Assembly (NCBI GenBank): GCA_030065815.1
Contig: JASJCU010000008.1
Coordinates: 1-55,339, forward strand
Direction: 5' to 3'
Length of the DNA: 55,339 bases
Origin: Gammaproteobacteria bacterium
GTDB lineage: Bacteria; Pseudomonadota; Gammaproteobacteria; Chromatiales; Chromatiaceae
How positions within the stretch are numbered: position 1 is the first letter of the stretch; every line of letters begins with the position of its first letter. Shown here one piece after another: positions 27,999-44,534 of the stretch. The notes beneath the pieces are model-generated. The model saw only the letters and a list, made by a program, of their open reading frames with translations. It did no database searches and was not told the origin of the DNA. The position numbers and the translations under genes were made by a program.

Positions 27999-29904
<1,906 letters not shown>

Positions 29905-30021: not shown

Positions 30022-31425
30022 TTGTCAAAAAAGAAATCCGTTTTCCGAGACATCGACGGGTCCGACCTGGCAACCCTGATGGAGGCCGCGGTCGATGTCG
30101 CGATGGTCGTCAGCAAACGCGGCAAGATCAACGCGGCGACATTCTCGAACCCGGACCTGCACGGCGAACTCAACGCCGTGCTGGTCGGCAAGCGCCTGGT
30201 CGACACGGTAACGGACGACAGCCTGCAGAAGGCCGAGGAGCTGCTGCATGTCGCCAACGGCCAGGGCCCGGGCCCGGTGGTCCGCGACCTGGTGCACCGG
30301 CTGCCGGACGGTTCGCAGCTGCCGGTGCGCTACGGCGCGGTGCCGGTGTTCGGCGACGGCCGGGTCGCGTTGCTCGGCCGCGATCAGCGTGCCGTGGCCG
30401 CGTTGCAGCAACAGGTGCTGGATGCGCAGATGGCGCTGGAGCAGGACTACTGGCGGTTGCGTCACGTCGAGGCGCGCTATCGACTGTTGTTCCAGATGGC
30501 CGGAGAGCCGCTGCTGATCGTCGACGAGCTGAGCCGGCGGGTGCTCGAGGCCAATCCGCTCGCCGACAAGCTCCTGGCGCCCGGCGGCAAGTCGATCGTC
30601 GGCAAGGCCCTGTCGACGGGCCTCGACAAGGCCGGCAGCGCGGCCCTGCTGGAGATGCTGCAGGAGGCGAGTGCGCTGGGCCGCGGCAGCGTAGCGGGCC
30701 TGCGCGCCGCCACCGGCAGCCAGACCTTTGGCGCGTCGGCGACCCTGCTGCGCCAGGGCGACGAGGCGCGCTTCCTGGTTCGCCTGTCGTTGGCCGACCA
30801 GCCCGCCGCCGCGCCGGGTGACGACGCGGCGGCGTGCATCGACGGCGTGATGCGCCACGCGCCGGACGCCGTCGTGCTGACAGACACCGACGGACACATC
30901 CGCGCCGTCAACCAGACGTTCCTGGAGATCGCCCAGCTGGCGTCCGAGGAACAGGTCATCGGGCGTTCGATCGACCGCTGGCTGGGGCGCAGCGGCGTCG
31001 ACCTCAGCGTGCTGTTGAACAATCTCCGCCAGCACGAGTCGGTGCGGCTGTTCGCGACCAAGCTGCGCAGCGAATTCGGCATGACCACCGATGTCGAGAT
31101 CTCGGTCGGCAGCTATGCCGACGGCGATCGCGCCGGGTTCGCATTCTTCATCCGTGACGTCGGCCGCCGACTCGCCGGCGACGCGGCCGGCGCGCCGCCG
31201 CTGCCGAGATCGGTCGAACAGATCACCCAGCAGGTCGGCCGCGTGCCGCTCAAGGACCTGGTCCGCCAATCGACCGACCTGGTCGAGAAACTGTGTATCG
31301 AGACCGCGCTGGAACTGACCGGTGACAACCGGGCATCGGCCGCCGAGCTGCTCGGCGTCAGCCGCCAGGGGCTGTACGCCAAGCTCAACCGCTACAACCT
31401 CGCCGACAAGAGCAGCGAAGACTAG
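30022..31425 (+). CDS. ppsR: Photosynthesis repressor PpsR/CrtJ
   Basis: Redox- and light-responsive repressor of pigment and antenna genes. The protein of about 467 residues has an N-terminal PAS-like region (LMEAAVDVAMVVSKRGKI), a coiled linker (QQQVLDAQMALEQDYWRLR), two PAS domains (RYRLLFQMAGEPLLIVDE; VMRHAPDAVVLTDTDGHIRA) and a Fis-type HTH (ASAAELLGVSRQGLYAKL). Cys425 in EKLCIETALEL matches the conserved redox Cys of the HTH domain; the central Cys known in Rhodobacter is not aligned. The start is uncertain: TTG 30022 (MSKKKSVF) is preferred, GTG 29971 is possible. It lies next to its own paired operator. Confidence 0.93.
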   Translation: MSKKKSVFRDIDGSDLATLMEAAVDVAMVVSKRGKINAATFSNPDLHGELNAVLVGKRLVDTVTDDSLQKAEELLHVANGQGPGPVVRDLVHRLPDGSQLPVRYGAVPVFGDGRVALLGRDQRAVAALQQQVLDAQMALEQDYWRLRHVEARYRLLFQMAGEPLLIVDELSRRVLEANPLADKLLAPGGKSIVGKALSTGLDKAGSAALLEMLQEASALGRGSVAGLRAATGSQTFGASATLLRQGDEARFLVRLSLADQPAAAPGDDAAACIDGVMRHAPDAVVLTDTDGHIRAVNQTFLEIAQLASEEQVIGRSIDRWLGRSGVDLSVLLNNLRQHESVRLFATKLRSEFGMTTDVEISVGSYADGDRAGFAFFIRDVGRRLAGDAAGAPPLPRSVEQITQQVGRVPLKDLVRQSTDLVEKLCIETALELTGDNRASAAELLGVSRQGLYAKLNRYNLADKSSED

Positions 31426-31737: not shown

Positions 31738-31781
31738 TGACAATCTAAATTGACATGTCCAATAGACAAGTCTAGATTACA
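31738..31781 (+). promoter_or_regulatory. bchG promoter overlapped by degenerate tandem PpsR operators
   Basis: TTGACA (31750-31755), a 17-bp spacer and TAGATT (31773-31778) form a near-consensus promoter whose start would be at 31785-31786, the bchG ATG itself. Two imperfect PpsR-type elements, TGACAATCTAAATTGACA (31738-31755) and AGACAAGTCTAGATTACA (31764-31781), each with one half-site mismatch, are again 8 bp apart and cover the whole promoter. Confidence 0.7.
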
Positions 31782-31785
31782 CTGC

Positions 31786-32703
31786 ATGCAATCGACGGCC
31801 ACTCTCAGCCGCTCACGGCAACGCCCCGCAGCGTCTGCGCTGCTCGAGCTGCTGAAGCCGGTCACGTGGTTTCCGCCGATGTGGGCGTTCCTGTGCGGCG
31901 TCGTGTCGTCCGGCGAAGCGGTCGTCGGTCAGCTGGGCATCGTCGTGCTCGGCATCCTGCTCGCAGGGCCACTGGTCTGCGGCGCCAGCCAGGTCGTCAA
32001 CGACTGGTTCGACCGCGATGTCGATGCGATCAACGAGCCGCAGCGACCGATCCCGTCCGGCCGGGTCCCCGGCCGCTGGGGCCTGTACTTCGCCATCGCC
32101 TGGTCGCTGCTCGCGCTCGCGGTCGGCGTGCTGCTGGGCCCGTGGGTGTTCGCGGCGACCGTGCTCGGCCTGCTGCTGGCCTGGGCCTACAGCGCGCCGC
32201 CGTTGCGACTGAAACTGAACGGCTGGTGGGGCAACGCCGCGGTCGGCATCTCGTACGAGGGCCTGGCCTGGGTGACCGGCGCCGCGGTGATGATCGGCGG
32301 TGCGCTGCCGGACGGCCGCATCCTGCTGCTGGCGCTGCTGTACAGCATCGGCGCGCACGGCATCATGACGCTCAACGACTTCAAGTCGATCGACGGCGAC
32401 CGGCAGATGGGCGTGCGCTCGATCCCGGTCCGGCTCGGTCCGGCGCGGGCCGCCCGCCTGGCCTGCTGGACCATGGCCGTGCCGCAACTGCTCGTCGCCG
32501 GTCTGCTCCTGTACTGGGGGAGCTGGCCGTTCGCGCTGCTCGTCGTCGGCGTGCTGCTGGCGCAGCTCGTGGCGATGCGCCGGCTGCTGCGCGACCCGCG
32601 CCGGTTCGCGCCGTGGTACAACGCCACCGGCGTCTCGCTGTACGTGCTCGGCATGCTGGCGAGCGCGTTCGCGGTCCGGGCGCTGGTCGGAGCCGGCGGC
32701 TGA
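31786..32703 (+). CDS. bchG: Bacteriochlorophyll synthase BchG
   Basis: Attaches geranylgeranyl or phytyl diphosphate to bacteriochlorophyllide a. The 305-residue UbiA-family membrane protein has the first Asp-rich motif VVNDWFDRDVDAINEPQRPI and the second in TLNDFKSIDGDRQMG, plus LLKPVTWFPPMWAF near the N-terminus. About eight membrane spans. ATG 31786 gives the usual N-terminus; it has no Shine-Dalgarno and coincides with the predicted transcription start, suggesting a leaderless mRNA. Start of the bchG-(PucC family)-bchP-HTH unit. Confidence 0.95.
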   Translation: MQSTATLSRSRQRPAASALLELLKPVTWFPPMWAFLCGVVSSGEAVVGQLGIVVLGILLAGPLVCGASQVVNDWFDRDVDAINEPQRPIPSGRVPGRWGLYFAIAWSLLALAVGVLLGPWVFAATVLGLLLAWAYSAPPLRLKLNGWWGNAAVGISYEGLAWVTGAAVMIGGALPDGRILLLALLYSIGAHGIMTLNDFKSIDGDRQMGVRSIPVRLGPARAARLACWTMAVPQLLVAGLLLYWGSWPFALLVVGVLLAQLVAMRRLLRDPRRFAPWYNATGVSLYVLGMLASAFAVRALVGAGG

Positions 32704-34064
32704 TGTCCGGTGCCGCATCCCTGGGCTGGCTCGGCATCGTCCGCCTCGGTCTGATCCAGGCCGCATTGGGCTCGATCGTCGTGTTGACGACGTCGACGCT
32801 GAACCGCGTCATGGTCGTCGAGTTCGCACTGCCGGCGATGCTGCCCGGTGCCCTGGTCGCGCTGCACCATGCGATCCAGATGAGCCGGCCGCGCTTCGGC
32901 TATGGCTCGGATGTCGGCGGGCGGCGTACCCCGTGGATCATCGGCGGCATGCTGGTGTTGGCGACCGGTGGTGTCACGGCATCGCTGGGTACCGCGCTGA
33001 TGGGTGTCGACCCGGTATGGGGCAGCGGGGTCGCGCTGCTCGGATTCGTGCTGATCGGACTCGGTGTCGGTGCCTGCGGCACGTCGCTGCTGGTGTTCCT
33101 CGCCAAGCGCGTCGACGCCGGGCGACGTGCCGCGGCGGCGACGATCGTCTGGGTCATGATGATCGTCGGTTTCGCGGTGACGGCCGGCGTGGCCGGGCAT
33201 TTCCTCGATCCGTTCTCACCGCAGCGCCTGGTCCTGGTGACCGCGTCGGTAGCGGCGATCGCGGTCGTCGTGACCGTGCTCGCGATGCGCAATCTCGAAG
33301 TCGACCGCCAACCGGGGCCGGACGACGCCGGGTCGCAACGCGCCAGGCGGATACCGTTTCGCACTGCGCTGGCCGGTGTCTGGCAGGAACAGGAGGCGCG
33401 CCGCTTCACGGTCTTCGTGTTCGTGTCGATGCTCGCCTACAGCGCCCAGGACCTGATTCTCGAACCGTTCGCCGGCCTGGTGTTCGGTATGACGCCCGGT
33501 GAATCCACGCAGCTCTCCGGCGTGCAGCACGCGGGCGTGCTGCTCGGCATGCTGATCGTTGCGATCACGGGCACGCTGCTCAAGCGCCATCGCAGCACGC
33601 TGCTCCGGCACTGGACCATCGGCGGCTGCGCCGCATCTGCCGTCGCGCTGTTCGTGATCGCCGCGGGTGGCTTCGTCGGGCCGGGTTGGCCACTGAATGC
33701 CAGCGTGTTCGCGCTGGGCGTCGCCAACGGTGCCTTCGCGGTCGCCGCGATCGGATCGATGATGGCGCTCGCCGGTCACGGTCGGGAGAATCGCGAGGGC
33801 CTGCGGATGGGGCTGTGGGGCGCTGCCCAGGCGATCGCGTTCGGACTCGGCGGTTTCCTCGGCACCGTCGCCGTCGATACCGCAAAGCTGTTCTTTGCCG
33901 CGCCGGAGGTCGCCTACGCGATCGTGTTCTGTGCCGAGGGCGGCCTGTTCATCGCCGCCGCGGTCCTGGCCGTGTCGGTTCATCCGCCGCGACAGCCGGC
34001 GGCGCAACACGAAATCGGCCTGTTCGGCGACGCGGATTTCGCCGAAGTGGCCGAGGGGAGGTAG
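32703..34064 (+). CDS. PucC-family membrane protein between bchG and bchP
   Basis: A 453-residue major-facilitator-like protein of the PucC/LhaA family with TSTLNRVMVVEFALPAMLPG, RPRFGYGSDVGGRRTPWIIGG and SAQDLILEPFAGLVFGMTPG. About twelve membrane spans. Homologues between bchG and bchP (orf428, sometimes called bch2) occur in Rhodobacter and are thought to carry pigment or aid assembly. The ATG overlaps the bchG stop. It is distinct from lhaA elsewhere in the window. Confidence 0.88.
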   Translation: MSGAASLGWLGIVRLGLIQAALGSIVVLTTSTLNRVMVVEFALPAMLPGALVALHHAIQMSRPRFGYGSDVGGRRTPWIIGGMLVLATGGVTASLGTALMGVDPVWGSGVALLGFVLIGLGVGACGTSLLVFLAKRVDAGRRAAAATIVWVMMIVGFAVTAGVAGHFLDPFSPQRLVLVTASVAAIAVVVTVLAMRNLEVDRQPGPDDAGSQRARRIPFRTALAGVWQEQEARRFTVFVFVSMLAYSAQDLILEPFAGLVFGMTPGESTQLSGVQHAGVLLGMLIVAITGTLLKRHRSTLLRHWTIGGCAASAVALFVIAAGGFVGPGWPLNASVFALGVANGAFAVAAIGSMMALAGHGRENREGLRMGLWGAAQAIAFGLGGFLGTVAVDTAKLFFAAPEVAYAIVFCAEGGLFIAAAVLAVSVHPPRQPAAQHEIGLFGDADFAEVAEGR

Positions 34065-34071
34065 CGAACCC

Positions 34072-35274
34072 ATGTCCGCAATCGAGCGATTCGATGTCGT
34101 TGTCGTCGGCGGCGGCCCGGCCGGTGCCACCGCGGCGACCGATCTGGCGCGGCGCGGCCGTGCCGTGCTGTTGTTGGAGCGCGGTGGCCGGATCAAGCCG
34201 TGCGGCGGCGCGATTCCGCCACGACTGATCGACGAGTTCGCGATCCCGCACGACCTGCTGGTCGCGCGCATTCGCTCGGCGCGCATGGTCTCGCCGCAGC
34301 GGCGTCAGGTGGATATGCCGATCGACGGCGGCTTCGTCGGCATGGTCGATCGCGACGTCTTCGATCCCTGGTTGCGCGAGCGCGCGCGGGCGTCCGGTGC
34401 CGACGTGCGCCTCGGCACGTTCGAGCAGCTGCAGCGTACCGGCGACGGCCAGGTGCGGGTCCGCTATTCGTTCAGCGATGCGCAAGGTCGAAGCAGCAGC
34501 CGCGAAGTCGAGGCCAAGGCGCTGATCGGCGCCGACGGTGCCCGCTCGCCGGTCGCCCGGCAGTGCATCCCGGGCGCCGACGAGATGCCGTGCGTCGCCG
34601 CCTACCATGAGATCGTCGCGTCGCCGGACGCCGGCGCCGGCAGCGATTTTCACCCGCAGCGCTGCGACGTTTGGTACCAGGGGCGGCTGTCGCCCGACTT
34701 CTATGCCTGGGTGTTCCCACACGGCGACAAGACGAGCATCGGCGTCGGCACGGCGCAGCGCGGTTTCTCGCTGCGCGGCGCGGTCCGCGCGTTGCGCGAT
34801 GACATCGGCATGGGTGATGCCGCGACGGTGCGCTGCGAGGGGGCCCCGATCCCGCTGCGGCCGCTGAAGCGCTGGGACGATGGCCGCAATGTGCTGCTCG
34901 CCGGTGATGCGGCGGGCGTCGTCGCGCCGGCATCGGGTGAGGGCATCTACTACGCGATGACCGGCGGCAGGATGGCCGCCGATGCGGTCGGGCAGTTCCT
35001 CGACACAGCCGATCCGGCGGCGCTGAAGACCGCGCGCCGGCGCTTCATGCGCAGTCACGGCAAGGTGTTCTGGGTGCTCGGGATCATGCAGCGCTTCTGG
35101 TATGCCAACGACCGTCGCCGCGAACGCTTCGTCAGCATCTGTCGCGACCCGGACGTCCAATACCTCACCTGGGAGGCCTATATGCACAAGCGCCTGGTAC
35201 GTGCCAAGCCCGCAGCCCACATGCGGATCTTCTTCAAGGACCTTGCACACCTGTTCGGCGTCGTTCGTCCCTGA
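34072..35274 (+). CDS. bchP: Geranylgeranyl reductase BchP
   Basis: Reduces the geranylgeranyl tail of bacteriochlorophyll a (or its diphosphate) to phytyl using NADPH. The 400-residue flavoprotein starts with the FAD-binding VVVVGGGPAGATAATDLARRG, has RGGRIKPCGGAIPPRL typical of BchP/ChlP, and the FAD motif NVLLAGDAAGVVAPASGEGI near residue 280. GGGGAGG lies upstream of the ATG, and the upstream gene ends 7 nt before. The C-terminal MRIFFKDLAHLFGVVRP is conserved. Confidence 0.94.
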   Translation: MSAIERFDVVVVGGGPAGATAATDLARRGRAVLLLERGGRIKPCGGAIPPRLIDEFAIPHDLLVARIRSARMVSPQRRQVDMPIDGGFVGMVDRDVFDPWLRERARASGADVRLGTFEQLQRTGDGQVRVRYSFSDAQGRSSSREVEAKALIGADGARSPVARQCIPGADEMPCVAAYHEIVASPDAGAGSDFHPQRCDVWYQGRLSPDFYAWVFPHGDKTSIGVGTAQRGFSLRGAVRALRDDIGMGDAATVRCEGAPIPLRPLKRWDDGRNVLLAGDAAGVVAPASGEGIYYAMTGGRMAADAVGQFLDTADPAALKTARRRFMRSHGKVFWVLGIMQRFWYANDRRRERFVSICRDPDVQYLTWEAYMHKRLVRAKPAAHMRIFFKDLAHLFGVVRP

Positions 35275-35350
35275 GGTCCGTCGTGACTGACGGACCCGCA
35301 TCGACCCGGAACCGCGCCGGCCCGATCGCCGGGCCACGCTACGCGAGGCG

Positions 35351-35683
35351 ATGCCCGGCGTGAGCACAGTGGAGCATCCAGCGGGCGATCACGTCGATCG
35401 CCAGGCGCGTCGTGATTGCCACCCGGCAGACGGGCTCCGCGAGACCGACGTCGAGCGGCAGCAGCGCCAGCTGTGGCAGCTGTTGCAGTCGCTGACCGGC
35501 CGGCTCGGCGAGTCGACGCTGAAGATGCTGGTGGGCGAGACCGTGAGCACCGTCGAGCGTCATTGCATCGAGGCGGCGTTGGCGATGACCGGCGGCAACC
35601 GCAGTGCCGCGGCCAAGGTGCTTGGCCTGAGCCGGCAGAGCCTGTATATCAAGCTCGCGCGCTACCGGATCGGTGGCGACTGA
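35351..35683 (+). CDS. Stand-alone PpsR-type HTH protein (mini-PpsR)
   Basis: A 110-residue protein with no PAS domain. Residues 52-110 (STLKMLVGETVSTVERHCIE onward, ending SRQSLYIKLARYRIGGD) align with the C-terminal linker and Fis-type HTH of PpsR, about half identical to the ppsR product encoded in this window, including the conserved Cys (Cys72 here, Cys425 there). The first 50 residues are hydrophilic, with a Gln-rich stretch (ERQQRQLWQLLQ). GAGG precedes ATG 35351; a GTG at 35360 is an alternative. It lies 76 nt after bchP and converges with acsF. It could bind PpsR operators without sensing, or dimerise with PpsR. Function is inferred. Confidence 0.75.
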   Translation: MPGVSTVEHPAGDHVDRQARRDCHPADGLRETDVERQQRQLWQLLQSLTGRLGESTLKMLVGETVSTVERHCIEAALAMTGGNRSAAAKVLGLSRQSLYIKLARYRIGGD

Positions 35684-35775: not shown

Positions 35776-36840
35776 CTACCAGGCCGGTGCCATACGCACC
35801 GTCTCGGGCAGTGCGTTCGGCTTCGCCGGCAGCAGGTAAAGCCGGGCGAACACCAGCGCGGCGTTGCCCGCCAGCGCCGCGCGCCGCAGTCCGCCACGCA
35901 CGCCGCCGCGTTGTTTCGCCGCCTCGACCGCGAGATTGATGTCACGCAGCCGTTCCAGCCCGACGCGGAACTTCGGATTGTCGGTGTCGAGCGTCAGAGG
36001 GAAGATCTGCCGGCTGATCGCGGTCGTGATGTCGAACACCCGGTAATCGAATTCCGTCGGGTCCATGCCGAGCGCCTCGTACAGTTGCGGCCTGCTGTGA
36101 TCGCGCACGTACATGGTCGCGTACACGGCGAGCACGAAGAAGCGGATCCACGCGACATTGATGCCACGCAGCAGGCGCGGGTTCGCGCGCATGATCAGCG
36201 CGAAGGCCTCGCCATGACGGAACTCGTCGTCGCACCATTCCTTGAACCATCTGAAGATCGGGTGGAAGCGGTATTCCGGGTGCTTCTCCAGGTGGCGGTA
36301 GATCGTGATGTAGCGCGCGTAGCCGATCTTTTCCGACAGGTAGGTCGCGTAGTAGATGAACTTGGGGCGGAAGTAGGTGTATTTCTTCGCGCGTTTGAGT
36401 AGACCGAGGTCGACCGCCATGCCGAGGTGCTTCAGCGAACGGTTGATAAAGCCGGCGTGACGCGACTCGTCGCGCGCCATCGCGTTCATCAGTTCCTTGA
36501 TCTCGGGATTAGCGACGTTCTTCTCGATTTCCTTGTACAGCACGCAGCCGGAGAATTCGGCAGTCACCGAGCTGGTCAGGAAGTCCAGGAACTCCTCGCG
36601 CAGCTCATCGGACATCGCGTGCGTCTCGGCGTCGAAGTCCACGTCCTTGCGGAAGTGCTCGCGGTTCTTGTCGCGCCGAAACTCCTCCATCATCCCGTCC
36701 CACTCGGCCCTGACCGGCGCGATGTCGAGTCGATCGAGCGCGGCATAGTCGGTGCGGTAGAAGCGCGGCGTCAGCAGCGTCTCCCGCCGCGCCTGATCGG
36801 TCGTACTGTTGGTGGCCTGCGGCGCGCTGTGCTCGGTCAT
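35776..36840 (-). CDS. acsF: Aerobic Mg-protoporphyrin IX monomethyl ester cyclase AcsF
   Basis: Di-iron monooxygenase forming the isocyclic E ring with oxygen. The 354-residue protein has the ferritin-like ligand motifs: [39 protein letters not shown] and [20 protein letters not shown], with Glu and ExxH pairs, and [23 protein letters not shown] 36840 is chosen for its AAGGAG ribosome site; the open frame extends upstream without family residues. Divergent from a BLUF gene across a PpsR-type operator pair. Complements bchE under oxic conditions. Confidence 0.95.
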
Positions 36841-36910
36841 CGGTGACTCCTTGAAAGGCATGGCGTGGGCATGGACCGGCAGGCCGGGTTCGGCATCCGG
36901 GCTACACTGA

Positions 36911-36954
36911 TGTACAATGGACAGTACACTGAATATTGTCAACTATAGTTGACT
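36911..36954. promoter_or_regulatory. Tandem PpsR/CrtJ operators between acsF and the BLUF gene
   Basis: TGTACAATGGACAGTACA (36911-36928) is a full TGT-N12-ACA palindrome; TGTCAACTATAGTTGACT (36937-36954), 8 bp away, is almost perfectly palindromic with one end base off. A TTGACA lies within the second site on the acsF strand, but no clear -10 follows at 17 bp (CATTGT). The sites could control acsF, the BLUF gene, or both. Confidence 0.78.
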
Positions 36955-37109: not shown

Positions 37110-37529
37110 ATGCTCTATCACCTCGGTTACGTCAGTACGCAAACCCGACCGCTGTCGGCCGACGATCTGGTCGCGCTGCTGAAGCAGGCGCGCGCCCGCA
37201 ACCAGGCCAACGGCGTCACCGGGCTGCTGCTGCACCGGGAGGACTCGTTCTTCCAGGTGCTGGAGGGCAACCAGGAACAGGTGATGCAGATCTTCAGCAG
37301 CATCGAACGCGACCCGCGCCACAATCGCGTCGAGGTCCTGTTCCAGGGGCCGACCGCGACCCGCGAGTTCAGCGACTGGCGCATGGGCTTCGTCGAACTG
37401 GACGGCGTCGACGTCGACCGTCTGCCGGGGTTCAGCGATTTCCTGGCGAGCGGCGCCGGGCCGCGACAGTTGCTCAAAGAGTTCACCGAAACCCAGCGTC
37501 TGATGCTGCTGTTCCGCAGCATGCAGTAG
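37110..37529 (+). CDS. BLUF-domain blue-light photoreceptor
   Basis: A 139-residue short BLUF protein, a flavin sensor with no output domain. Tyr7 in LGYVS, Asn31 in [13 protein letters not shown], Gln49 in FFQVLEGN, and Trp90/Met92 in SDWRMGF match the residues of the BLUF photocycle. Short BLUF proteins act through partner proteins. Divergent from acsF across a PpsR operator pair and upstream of bchE, so it may sense light for the pigment genes much as AppA does in Rhodobacter, but without AppA's other domains. The ATG has no strong Shine-Dalgarno. Confidence 0.9.
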
Positions 37530-37646: not shown

Positions 37647-37689
37647 TGTCAAAAATAATAGACAACTAGACTGTCATTATTCAAAGACA
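37647..37689 (+). promoter_or_regulatory. Tandem PpsR/CrtJ operators upstream of bchE
   Basis: TGTCAAAAATAATAGACA (37647-37664) and TGTCATTATTCAAAGACA (37672-37689) both match TGT-N12-ACA exactly and are separated by 7 bp, one less than elsewhere in the window. They lie 50-95 bp before the bchE ATG. A TTGACC at 37639 could be a -35, but no clear -10 follows. Confidence 0.83.
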
Positions 37690-37740
37690 CTCGTCGCCGC
37701 GCCGGCGACGCCAGCCAGGCCGCCCGCCGGGAGGCGCACG

Positions 37741-39447
37741 ATGCGCATCGTCCTGATTCACCCCAACTATCACTCCGGTGGTGCCGAGATCGCCGGCAAC
37801 TGGCCACCGGCCTGGGTCGCCTACCTCAGCGGTCCGCTGAAGGCGGCCGGATTCGACGATCTCGAGTTCATCGACGCGATGACCAACGATCTCGACGACG
37901 ACGCGCTGCGTGCGCGCCTGCGTCTTGCGAATGCCGATATCGTCGGCGCCACGGCGATCACGCCGTCGATCTACAAGGCCGAACGGGCCCTGCAGATCGC
38001 CAAGGAGGTCAATCCCGCCAGCGTGACCGTGCTCGGCGGCGTGCACGCGACCTTCATGTACCAGCAGGTGCTGTCGGAAGCGCCGTGGATCGATGCCATC
38101 GTGCGCGGTGAGGGCGAGGAGGTCTTCCTCGAGTTCGTGCGTGCGGTCGCCGACGGGCGCTGGCCGTCGGCGCAGCGCGAGATCCAGGGACTCGCGTTCC
38201 GGCGGGATGGTGAGATCATCGCGACGCCGGCGGCGCCGACCATCAAGGACCTCGACGGGCTGGTGCCCGACTGGTCGATCCTCGAGTGGGACAAGTACAT
38301 CTACATCCCGCTGGGCAAGCGCGTCGCGATACCGAACATGGCCCGCGGTTGTCCGTTCACCTGTTCGTTCTGCTCGCAATGGAAGTTCTGGCGCGACTAC
38401 CGCGTGCGTGACCCCAGGGCCGTCGTCGACGAGATCGAGACCCTGGTCAACGAACACGGCGTCGGTTTTTTCATCCTCGCCGACGAGGAACCGACGATCA
38501 ATCGCAAGAAGTTCGTGACTTTCTGCGAGGAACTGATCGCGCGTGGCCTTCCCGACAGGGTGCAGTGGGGCATCAACACCCGCGTGACCGACATCATGCG
38601 CGACGCCGACTACCTGTCGCTGTACCGCAGGGCGGGTCTGGTGCACGTGTCGCTCGGTACCGAGGCCGCGGCCCAGCTCAAGCTCGACCTGTTCAACAAG
38701 GAGACCCGCGTCGAAGAGAACCGCCGCGCGATCCAGCTGTTGCGCGAGGCCGACATCTTCACCGAGGCGCAGTTCATCGTCGGGCTCGACAACGAGACCG
38801 AGGAGACCCTCGAAGAGACCTACCGTTACGCGCGCGAATGGAATCCAGATCTCGCCAACTGGTCGATGTACACGCCGTGGCCGTTTTCGCCGCTGTTCCA
38901 GGAACTCGGCGACAAGGTCGAGGTGTTCGACTTCGAGAAGTACAATTTCGTGACCCCGATCATGCGTCCCGCGGCGATGGACCGGGCGACCCTGCTCGAC
39001 CGCGTCATGGCCAACTACCGTCGCTTCTACATGATCAAGGCCCTGTTCCATTACCCCTGGCGCGGCACCGGCTATCGGCGCCGCTACCTGCTCGGCTGCC
39101 TGAAGGCCTTTCTGAAGGCCGGCGTGCAGCGCACCTTCTACGACCTCGGCAAGGTCGGTTACTGGGGACCGCAGTCGAAGAAGCGTGTCGATTTCCATTT
39201 CGATGCGTCGCGTCAGATCGCGCCGGCTCAGACCGCGGACTGGGAGGCGCTGGTCGAGCAGCAGCGCCGGAAGTCGGAGCGCAAGGCCGCGATCCGGCTG
39301 CAGGCGATCGAGCGCAAGGCCAATGCGAGGGGCGACGTGATCAAGGCGTGTGGCGGTGGCGACGCACAGCTCGACGAGGCCACGCTCGAGGCGCTGACCC
39401 AATCCCCGGTCGACGGCGACGGCGCCGCGCGCGGCCTGCCGTCCTGA
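37741..39447 (+). CDS. bchE: Anaerobic Mg-protoporphyrin IX monomethyl ester cyclase BchE
   Basis: Oxygen-independent, B12-dependent radical SAM enzyme that forms the E ring using water. The 568-residue protein starts [20 protein letters not shown], has a cobalamin-binding-like N-terminal domain ([13 protein letters not shown]), the cluster motif [20 protein letters not shown] (CX3CX2C) near residues 203-210, and a C-terminal BchE domain ([20 protein letters not shown]). GGGAGG precedes the ATG. Works under low oxygen where AcsF cannot. Overlaps bchJ as TGATG. Confidence 0.95.
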
Positions 39448-44034: not shown

Positions 44035-44087
44035 CCTTGCCCAGCAGGCATAATGCCGGGCGGGTGACGCAACACGGGGGAATCCGC

Positions 44088-44534
44088 ATGCTCTTGCAAC
44101 TGGGCTATGTCAGCACGGCGACCGGGTCCACGGATCGTGCCGGTCTGCTCGATATCCTGGAGACGGCGCGCGGGTTGAACCACGGCGCCGGCGTCACCGG
44201 ATTGCTGTTGTTCTACGACGGCCACTTCATGCAGCTGCTTGAGGGCGAGGAGCACGCGGTGCGCGACATCTTCGGCCGCATCGCGGCCGACCCGCGACAC
44301 CGCGACATCACGGTGTTGTTCGAGGAGCCGATCGACGAACGCCTGTTCACGGACTGGACGATGGGATTCCAGAGGCTCGACGGTAACGAGCTGCTCGAGT
44401 TCCCGGTCGAGAACGGCGCTGCGCCGGGCCTGCGCGCGATGGCGCAGGACGCCGGCCGCGCCAAGCAGCTGCTGCTGCGGATGCGCAGCCGCGGCCTCGA
44501 TCCGCGCAAGGACATCGCGACGACGCCGTCGTGA
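44088..44534 (+). CDS. BLUF-domain blue-light photoreceptor (second copy)
   Basis: 148-residue short BLUF protein, clearly paralogous to the one at 37110: Tyr7 (LGYVS), Asn31 (LNHGAGVTGLLLF), Gln49 (FMQLLEGE), Trp90 and Met92 (TDWTMGF) occupy identical positions. The C-terminal extension (AKQLLLRMRSRGLDPRKDI) differs. GGGGGA precedes the ATG. It is convergent with eda and outside the pigment genes, with no PpsR-type site nearby, so the two copies may serve different circuits. Confidence 0.9.
   Translation: MLLQLGYVSTATGSTDRAGLLDILETARGLNHGAGVTGLLLFYDGHFMQLLEGEEHAVRDIFGRIAADPRHRDITVLFEEPIDERLFTDWTMGFQRLDGNELLEFPVENGAAPGLRAMAQDAGRAKQLLLRMRSRGLDPRKDIATTPS

Follow-up and report, generated by a model that had tools for sequence, protein, structure and literature searches.

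We identified, in the photosynthesis gene cluster of an uncultured purple-bacterium relative, a 110-residue protein, here called mini-PpsR2, that is best read as the product of a reduced second ppsR (ppsR2), not of a new kind of gene. Its sequence suggests a sensor-blind, putative binder of PpsR operators that would compete with the full-length PpsR1 encoded nearby, a reading to which we give a probability of roughly 55%. In purple bacteria, PpsR (CrtJ) is the main regulator of the photosynthesis genes. The gene lies in a stretch of 55,339 nucleotides (contig JASJCU010000008.1, hereafter the window) from a draft genome of 172 contigs and 3.89 Mb that is 98.87% complete.

35351..35683, + strand: mini-PpsR2, 110 residues; low-confidence tail (about residues 1-32) followed by the linker helix and Fis-type helix-turn-helix (HTH) of PpsR
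35447..35680, + strand: Fis-like DNA-binding domain; helices at residues 33-49, 57-79, 84-91 and 95-104; recognition-helix letters SRQSLYIKL

The open reading frame, which the initial annotation had described as a PpsR linker with a Fis-type HTH, was found exactly at this place, with an ATG at 35351 and a TGA ending at 35683. Residues 66-105 matched the Pfam model HTH_8 (Fis) at E 9e-15, and none of the six Pfam models reported up to E 10 was a PAS model. The NCBIfam model TIGR02040 (PpsR-CrtJ) matched residues 32-107 at E 7.5e-24, limited to the C-terminus of the model (positions 366-442 of 442). The protein thus consists of the DNA-binding part of PpsR by itself, with no PAS domains, as the annotation had claimed. 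Its TIGR02040 score was 84.6 bits, below the curated cut-off of 275.4 bits; the next model reached 34.7 bits, and the Fis family NF001659 scored 22.2 bits, below its cut-off of 99 bits. The HTH part had a coding-like GC content by codon position (0.667/0.462/0.923), and the first 32 codons were less coding-like (0.844/0.531/0.719); given this composition, the tail may have been recruited from non-coding sequence. An alternative start is the GTG at 35360. Predicted ribosome-binding energies at the two likeliest starts were weak (-5.9 and -6.3), compared with -12.3 before bchP.

The AF2 model of mini-PpsR2 had a mean pLDDT of 82 with a low-confidence tail, and block means of 92-98 over residues 41-100 and 87 over residues 101-110. 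It aligned with the Fis-DNA complex 3iv5 over 78 residues (Z 9.3, rmsd 4.4), a Z value common for helical folds, and with the NtrC4 DNA-binding domain over 67 residues (Z 8.5, rmsd 2.6). The structural re-alignment covered Foldseek's own hits, whose E-values were weak (best, 0.065). In the model, the linker helix, through which Fis-type domains dimerize, appears to be retained. These fold scores would also suit an ordinary small regulator of the Fis or NtrC type that never derived from PpsR. We consider such an origin very improbable, given the margin of the TIGR02040 C-terminus over the next model, the position of the gene in the ppsR2 slot described below, and the best matches in the order, which are PpsR-type frames.

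The mini-PpsR2 gene is flanked by the following genes.

~30028..31425, + strand: ppsR1, full-length PpsR with PAS and HTH domains (TIGR02040, 463.6 bits over 1-442)
31786..32703, + strand: bchG, start by inspection
32703..34064, + strand: bch2/PucC-type MFS gene, start by inspection
34072..35274, + strand: bchP, start by inspection; ends 76 nt before the mini-PpsR2 frame
35779..36846, - strand: acsF, convergent with the mini-PpsR2 gene

The order ppsR1-bchG-bch2-bchP-[ppsR2]-acsF is common to the window and two congeners, G190 and G192, with acsF on the opposite strand and followed by a BLUF gene. A search for homologues next to bchP/acsF, as the initial annotation had suggested, found a second ppsR of these congeners, full-length or shortened, in exactly the slot of the mini gene. 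In Ca. Thiodictyon syntrophicum the order is bchG-MFS-bchP-ppsR2; the photosynthesis genes of this organism, including both ppsR genes, lie on a plasmid (NZ_CP020372.1, 105000-145000), where about 25 kb of unrelated genes separate ppsR1 and chlG. Bradyrhizobium is described with the order BphP-ppsR2-cycA-bchP-MFS-bchG-ppsR1 (PMC10569730), in which cycA stands between bchP and ppsR2, unlike in the window. The mini gene is therefore no isolated invention, since it occupies the slot of the second regulator, ppsR2, in Chromatiaceae and Bradyrhizobium. Like mini-PpsR2, the PpsR2 of Bradyrhizobium and Rhodopseudomonas palustris is a second PpsR encoded near bchG-MFS-bchP, but it comprises N, PAS1, PAS2 and HTH domains and normally has no Cys in the HTH, whereas mini-PpsR2 is an HTH only and has a Cys (PMC10569730, PMC6899989, PMC4452267).

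The three phototrophic genomes of the genus represent three states of ppsR2. G190 encodes a full-length PpsR2 of about 453 residues with PAS domains and HTH. In G192 the protein has about 230 residues from its likely start and keeps an N-terminal PAS-like domain and the HTH, having lost PAS1 and PAS2; the window genome has the HTH alone. Reaction-centre genes (PF00124) were found in these three among nine genomes of the genus; the remaining six lacked matches to both reaction centre and PpsR. All are drafts, with a completeness of 94-99% in the three phototrophs. Phototrophy is thus patchy within the genus. In G192, a 102-residue, apparently membrane-type ORF (L039, 8874-9182, - strand) with no Pfam match at 0.001 overlaps the end of bchP and precedes the shortened ppsR2.

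A tree of 14 photosynthesis-cluster genes (trimmed and non-overlapping) placed G190 and G192 as sisters with support of 99/99. AU tests on the same tree rejected a grouping of the window with G192 (p-AU 0.0013) and gave p 0.034 for the window with G190. An earlier, first concatenation had rejected the window with G192 only at p 0.044 and had not settled the three-way order; an earlier 14-ORF concatenation gave 100/100 and p 1.2e-5 from stop-to-stop frames that overlapped neighbouring genes. An RpoB tree (window with G192, p 0.061) was left out, as it contained wrong-frame segments for G058, G186 and G117. Because G190 and G192 are sisters and the PpsR2 of G190 is full-length, the PAS losses in the window and in G192 are, judged from these sequences, two independent events.

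We then considered how the PAS part was lost. A search of the window's own genome with the PpsR2 of G190 (452 residues) at E up to 0.001 turned up no PAS part belonging to a second PpsR; the matches were PpsR1, the mini-PpsR2 HTH and two weak ones confined to the HTH end. A blastn comparison of positions 35275-35480 with the bchP-ppsR2 stretches of G190 and G192 gave short, chance-level matches (best E 0.008, reverse strand). A frameshifted ppsR2 or a hidden PAS part was thereby ruled out, as no PpsR2 PAS DNA was found in the genome and the frame is uninterrupted, with neither stop nor frameshift. For the same two reasons, sequence evidence assigns the PAS loss to a deletion, not a frameshift. 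The draft state of the genome, with its 172 contigs, might point to an assembly error or a frameshifted second ppsR behind the short gene, but this explanation is very hard to sustain: no PAS remnant was found in the genome, the bchP-mini gap shows chance-level DNA matches, the gene is interior to a 55-kb contig among neighbours in conserved order, and a congener carries a different ppsR2 deletion.

The short forms proved rare. A search of the order found 102 HTH matches in 75 of 210 genomes; 100 of them lay in open frames of at least 432 residues, and the exceptions were the window (130 residues) and G192 (313 residues). A mirror search with the PAS part of the G190 PpsR2 gave 101 matches, again in 75 of the 210 genomes, with G192 as the sole short frame; the short forms are thus no artefact of the HTH query, since both searches give the same picture. 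No PAS-only remnant was detected in the 210 genomes at E up to 1e-12, a limit below which short PAS remnants could fall. The first pass of these genome searches scored only some candidates per genome. In a sample of the phylum, PpsR-type matches occurred in 31 of 398 genomes, and the 30 other than our own all had frames of at least 473 residues. In a sample of the class, eight of 369 genomes matched; the seven others comprised four long PpsR-type frames, two NtrC-type frames and one of 86 residues that we read as Fis itself. A plasmid search returned 14 records, 10 of them annotated ppsR, and a contig search kept 80 loci of 127 confirmed, mostly of NtrC type, in which complete PpsR-type frames were long except for L054, the G192 gene. 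No further mini form was found in the order, phylum, class, plasmid or contig searches, so that a single genome is known to have the 110-residue form. Searches of the open-licence PMC literature, including the available portions of PMC4452267, PMC3949515, PMC2654016, PMC11406998, PMC10569730, PMC6899989 and PMC8877833, brought up no account of a PpsR that lacks PAS domains. The initial annotation had reasoned that if all homologues carried PAS domains, the gene would be a frameshifted second ppsR. Among the other PpsR-type frames seen, all but that of G192 are indeed long enough for the full PAS set, for which reason we regard the gene as a reduced ppsR2; a frameshift was the wrong explanation, as the gene arose by deletion and G192 lost PAS1 and PAS2 independently.

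Descent of the mini gene from ppsR2 is very probable on sequence grounds. Over linker and HTH, mini-PpsR2 is 64% identical to the PpsR2 of each congener and 46% identical to its own PpsR1. In an HTH tree of 68 columns, 13 PpsR1 rows fell on one side without mini-PpsR2 (100/99), and its nearest rows were the PpsR2 of the congeners. AU tests on this tree, which have little power at 68 columns, rejected neither a grouping with PpsR1 (p 0.49) nor one with the two congeners' PpsR2 (p 0.44). As the grouping with PpsR1 is left unrejected, the assignment rests on slot and identity. An earlier HTH tree had taken in the unaligned tail, and the long mini branch in it is meaningless.

We next asked whether the HTH bears marks of constraint. 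In 32 other HTHs, 23 columns are conserved at 90% or more, and the mini-PpsR2 HTH matches every one of them; the recognition-helix columns are conserved. Nine changes are specific to mini-PpsR2 relative to both congeners, and none falls in the 23 conserved columns (chance 0.0019). A separate random-mutation control is weak, as it mixes both branches. Omega on the mini branch was 0.089 against a background of 0.067; omega = 1 was marginally rejected (LRT 3.85, p about 0.05), with synonymous sites near saturation. The selection tests span the whole mini branch, including the time before truncation, and are therefore no proof of constraint after it. Within the genus, the PpsR2 HTH has evolved faster than the PpsR1 HTH, with pairwise differences of 21, 23 and 19 of 67 residues versus 7, 10 and 10 of 72.

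The faster evolution is what would be expected of a decaying remnant, in which PpsR2 became dispensable after loss of a phytochrome partner and late erosion has by chance left the HTH intact, with no role. The weak start-site signals, the poorly coding tail and the frequent loss of phototrophy genes, with six of nine genomes of the genus having no reaction-centre or PpsR match, fit this account as well. Set against them are the sparing of the HTH in both truncations with no PAS-only remnant seen, the absence of mini-specific changes from conserved columns, the frame without stop or frameshift, and an omega well below 1, if marginally tested. We take decay to be a serious possibility, though the less probable one. 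That the HTH survived two separate losses is a hint that the DNA-binding module by itself retains a use.

The division of work between the PpsR PAS domains and the HTH cysteine varies by species. Cys72 of mini-PpsR2 aligns with the HTH Cys of PpsR1, so the cysteine reported by the initial annotation is indeed there; it is probably not the conserved residue that the annotation took it for. Among 39 distinct C-termini fetched, this column holds Cys in 25 of 25 PpsR1 and Tyr in 13 of 13 other Chromatiaceae PpsR2, with mini-PpsR2 the one PpsR2 with Cys. Because the other PpsR2 fetched have Tyr, the mini-PpsR2 Cys was probably not inherited, and Y72C is probably a lineage-specific change. Three alphaproteobacterial PpsR-type sequences (L059-L061) also have Cys in this column (HCIE). 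R. palustris CGA009 is described with an R428C change together with a frameshifted bphP1, a loose parallel to the absent phytochrome and Tyr-to-Cys change here; a disulfide between HTH domains is also described (PMC6899989). An HTH Cys mutant of Rubrivivax was almost without phenotype in vivo (PMC4452267). We hypothesize that mini-PpsR2 may be redox-gated through Cys72.

In R. palustris, the phytochrome BphP1 binds PpsR2 (PMC6899989). Among 16 other Chromatiaceae genomes, a selection from those with PpsR2, 13 had a gene with a PHY domain (PF00360, phytochrome) a few kb or less from a PpsR2-type gene. By contrast, the three phototrophs of the window's genus all gave no PF00360 match, including the window's own genome at 98.87% completeness. 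The remaining three of the 16, all of genus g49, have a full PpsR2 and PHY matches elsewhere: in G057 and G058, the PHY gene is next to a second PpsR2-like gene on another contig, and the contig of G150 stops about 1 kb beyond ppsR2, so that a neighbouring PHY gene may be missed. G058 (C10) and G057 (C381) each carry two PpsR2-like genes, and the PHY gene of G058 adjoins the copy away from bchP. Judged from these gene contents, PpsR2 in the window gives the impression of a light-regulated repressor that was orphaned and dropped its sensor. Most simply, loss of the light receptor came first, and the sensory half of PpsR2 was then shed twice while the operator-binding half was kept. Phytochrome loss does not force truncation, because G190 has a full PpsR2 without a PHY match and the three g49 genomes have a full PpsR2 with no PHY gene next to it.

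To place the gene in its regulatory context, we listed candidate operators and possible transcription signals around it.

31738..31755, + strand: PpsR-like candidate operator TGACAATCTAAATTGACA, located upstream of bchG, with the hexamer TTGACA at its end (by eye)
36911..36928, + strand: PpsR-type candidate operator TGTACAATGGACAGTACA, in the acsF/BLUF gap
29861..29878, + strand: PpsR-type candidate operator in the bchF/ppsR1 gap (autoregulatory position)
35275..35296, + strand: perfect 8-bp inverted repeat directly 3' of the bchP stop, with no T run
35319..35335, + strand: GC-rich inverted repeat in the bchP-mini gap

We counted 19 copies of the motif TGT-N12-ACA in the window, where 4.6 would be expected; none of these lies between bchP and the mini gene. 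The PpsR-type operator assigned to the bchG-bchP unit by the initial annotation does exist upstream of bchG, albeit imperfect, its core being TGA-N12-ACA with one mismatch to TGT-N12-ACA; candidate sites upstream of bchG in G190 and G192 have a perfect TGT/ACA core. The annotation also placed the mini gene with bchG-bchP, and the gene is indeed co-oriented with bchG-bch2-bchP. Co-transcription with bchP is plausible given the 76-nt gap, although the two inverted repeats lie between them. The 8-bp repeat was not reported by a terminator scan, the GC-rich stretch pairs otherwise in the predicted minimum-energy fold, and the RNA fold of the gap is unexceptional (z -1.27).

We propose the following mechanism, a hypothesis like the competition, heterodimerization, thiol gating and feedback suggested by the initial annotation. 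Loss of the phytochrome would have made the docking platform formed by the PAS domains dispensable. The remaining Fis-like dimer would bind PpsR operators (TGT-N12-ACA) with no PAS sensing of light or redox. PAS2 is described as having a role in PpsR tetramers (PMC3949515); unable to form the PAS-dependent tetramer, mini-PpsR2 would compete with PpsR1 for operators and damp the PpsR1 switch. With the gained Cys72, a redox-dependent disulfide may take over dimerization from the PAS domains. The gene is probably transcribed together with bchG from the promoter region that carries the operator, and a feedback loop would result. As to the net effect, we lean slightly towards an anti-repressor over a weak constitutive co-repressor.

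A sensor-blind co-repressor would form a heterodimer with PpsR1, or block RNA polymerase by binding the operator, and so impose constitutive basal repression. The TTGACA hexamer at the end of the candidate bchG operator agrees with such blocking, and Fis-type HTH four-helix bundles and modelled HTH heterodimers described for PpsR2-BphP1 (PMC6899989) with such pairing. The linker and HTH of mini-PpsR2 are nevertheless only 46% identical to those of PpsR1, and the PAS domains with the PpsR dimer and tetramer contacts (PMC3949515) are lost, so that we rate co-repression as rather unlikely, and competition with PpsR1 remains our preferred reading. The series in one genus (full-length, PAS1-PAS2 deleted, HTH only), with PpsR1 intact and no phytochrome found, provides ready-made constructs for the function of the HTH alone.

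Several known regulators resemble mini-PpsR2 in part. PpsR1/CrtJ (TIGR02040) shares with it the linker, the Fis-type HTH and the HTH Cys column, and differs in its PAS domains. AerR isoforms are a case of regulator isoforms with opposite effects in photosystem control, but AerR is a different, cobalamin-binding protein, with no separate truncated gene as far as described in the available part of PMC6199135. E. coli Fis, too, is a small protein that stands alone and has a fold of the Fis type (known from a model for mini-PpsR2); mini-PpsR2, by contrast, is apparently PpsR2-derived, lies in a photosynthesis cluster, and has a modelled N-terminus with no strand of at least three residues. Fis reportedly arose from the NtrC DNA-binding domain, a proposal attributed to Morett and Bork in 1998. 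The accessible portion of PMC7408454 contains nothing on the origin of Fis. By analogy, mini-PpsR2 and Fis are plausibly parallel births from a multi-domain regulator, and mini-PpsR2 would make a second example, open to observation, of the route proposed for Fis from NtrC. The boldest version, which we regard as unlikely, is that a Fis-like regulator is being born: with the phytochrome lost and the PpsR2 sensor shed twice, Y72C would bring a redox disulfide and yield a thiol-switched PpsR1 competitor within its own operon.

The anaerobic cyclase gene bchE (37738-39447) lies beside acsF, with tandem PpsR-type candidate operators at 37647-37664 and 37672-37689; tblastn found no bchE in G190 (whole contig) or G192 (80 kb). 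The window carries two single-domain BLUF genes (37113-37529 and 44070-44531), the first of which has a counterpart next to acsF in G190 and G192. A single BLUF gene near ppsR is described in Congregibacter (PMC2654016), and it is possible that BLUF provides light input to PpsR1 where the phytochrome is absent.
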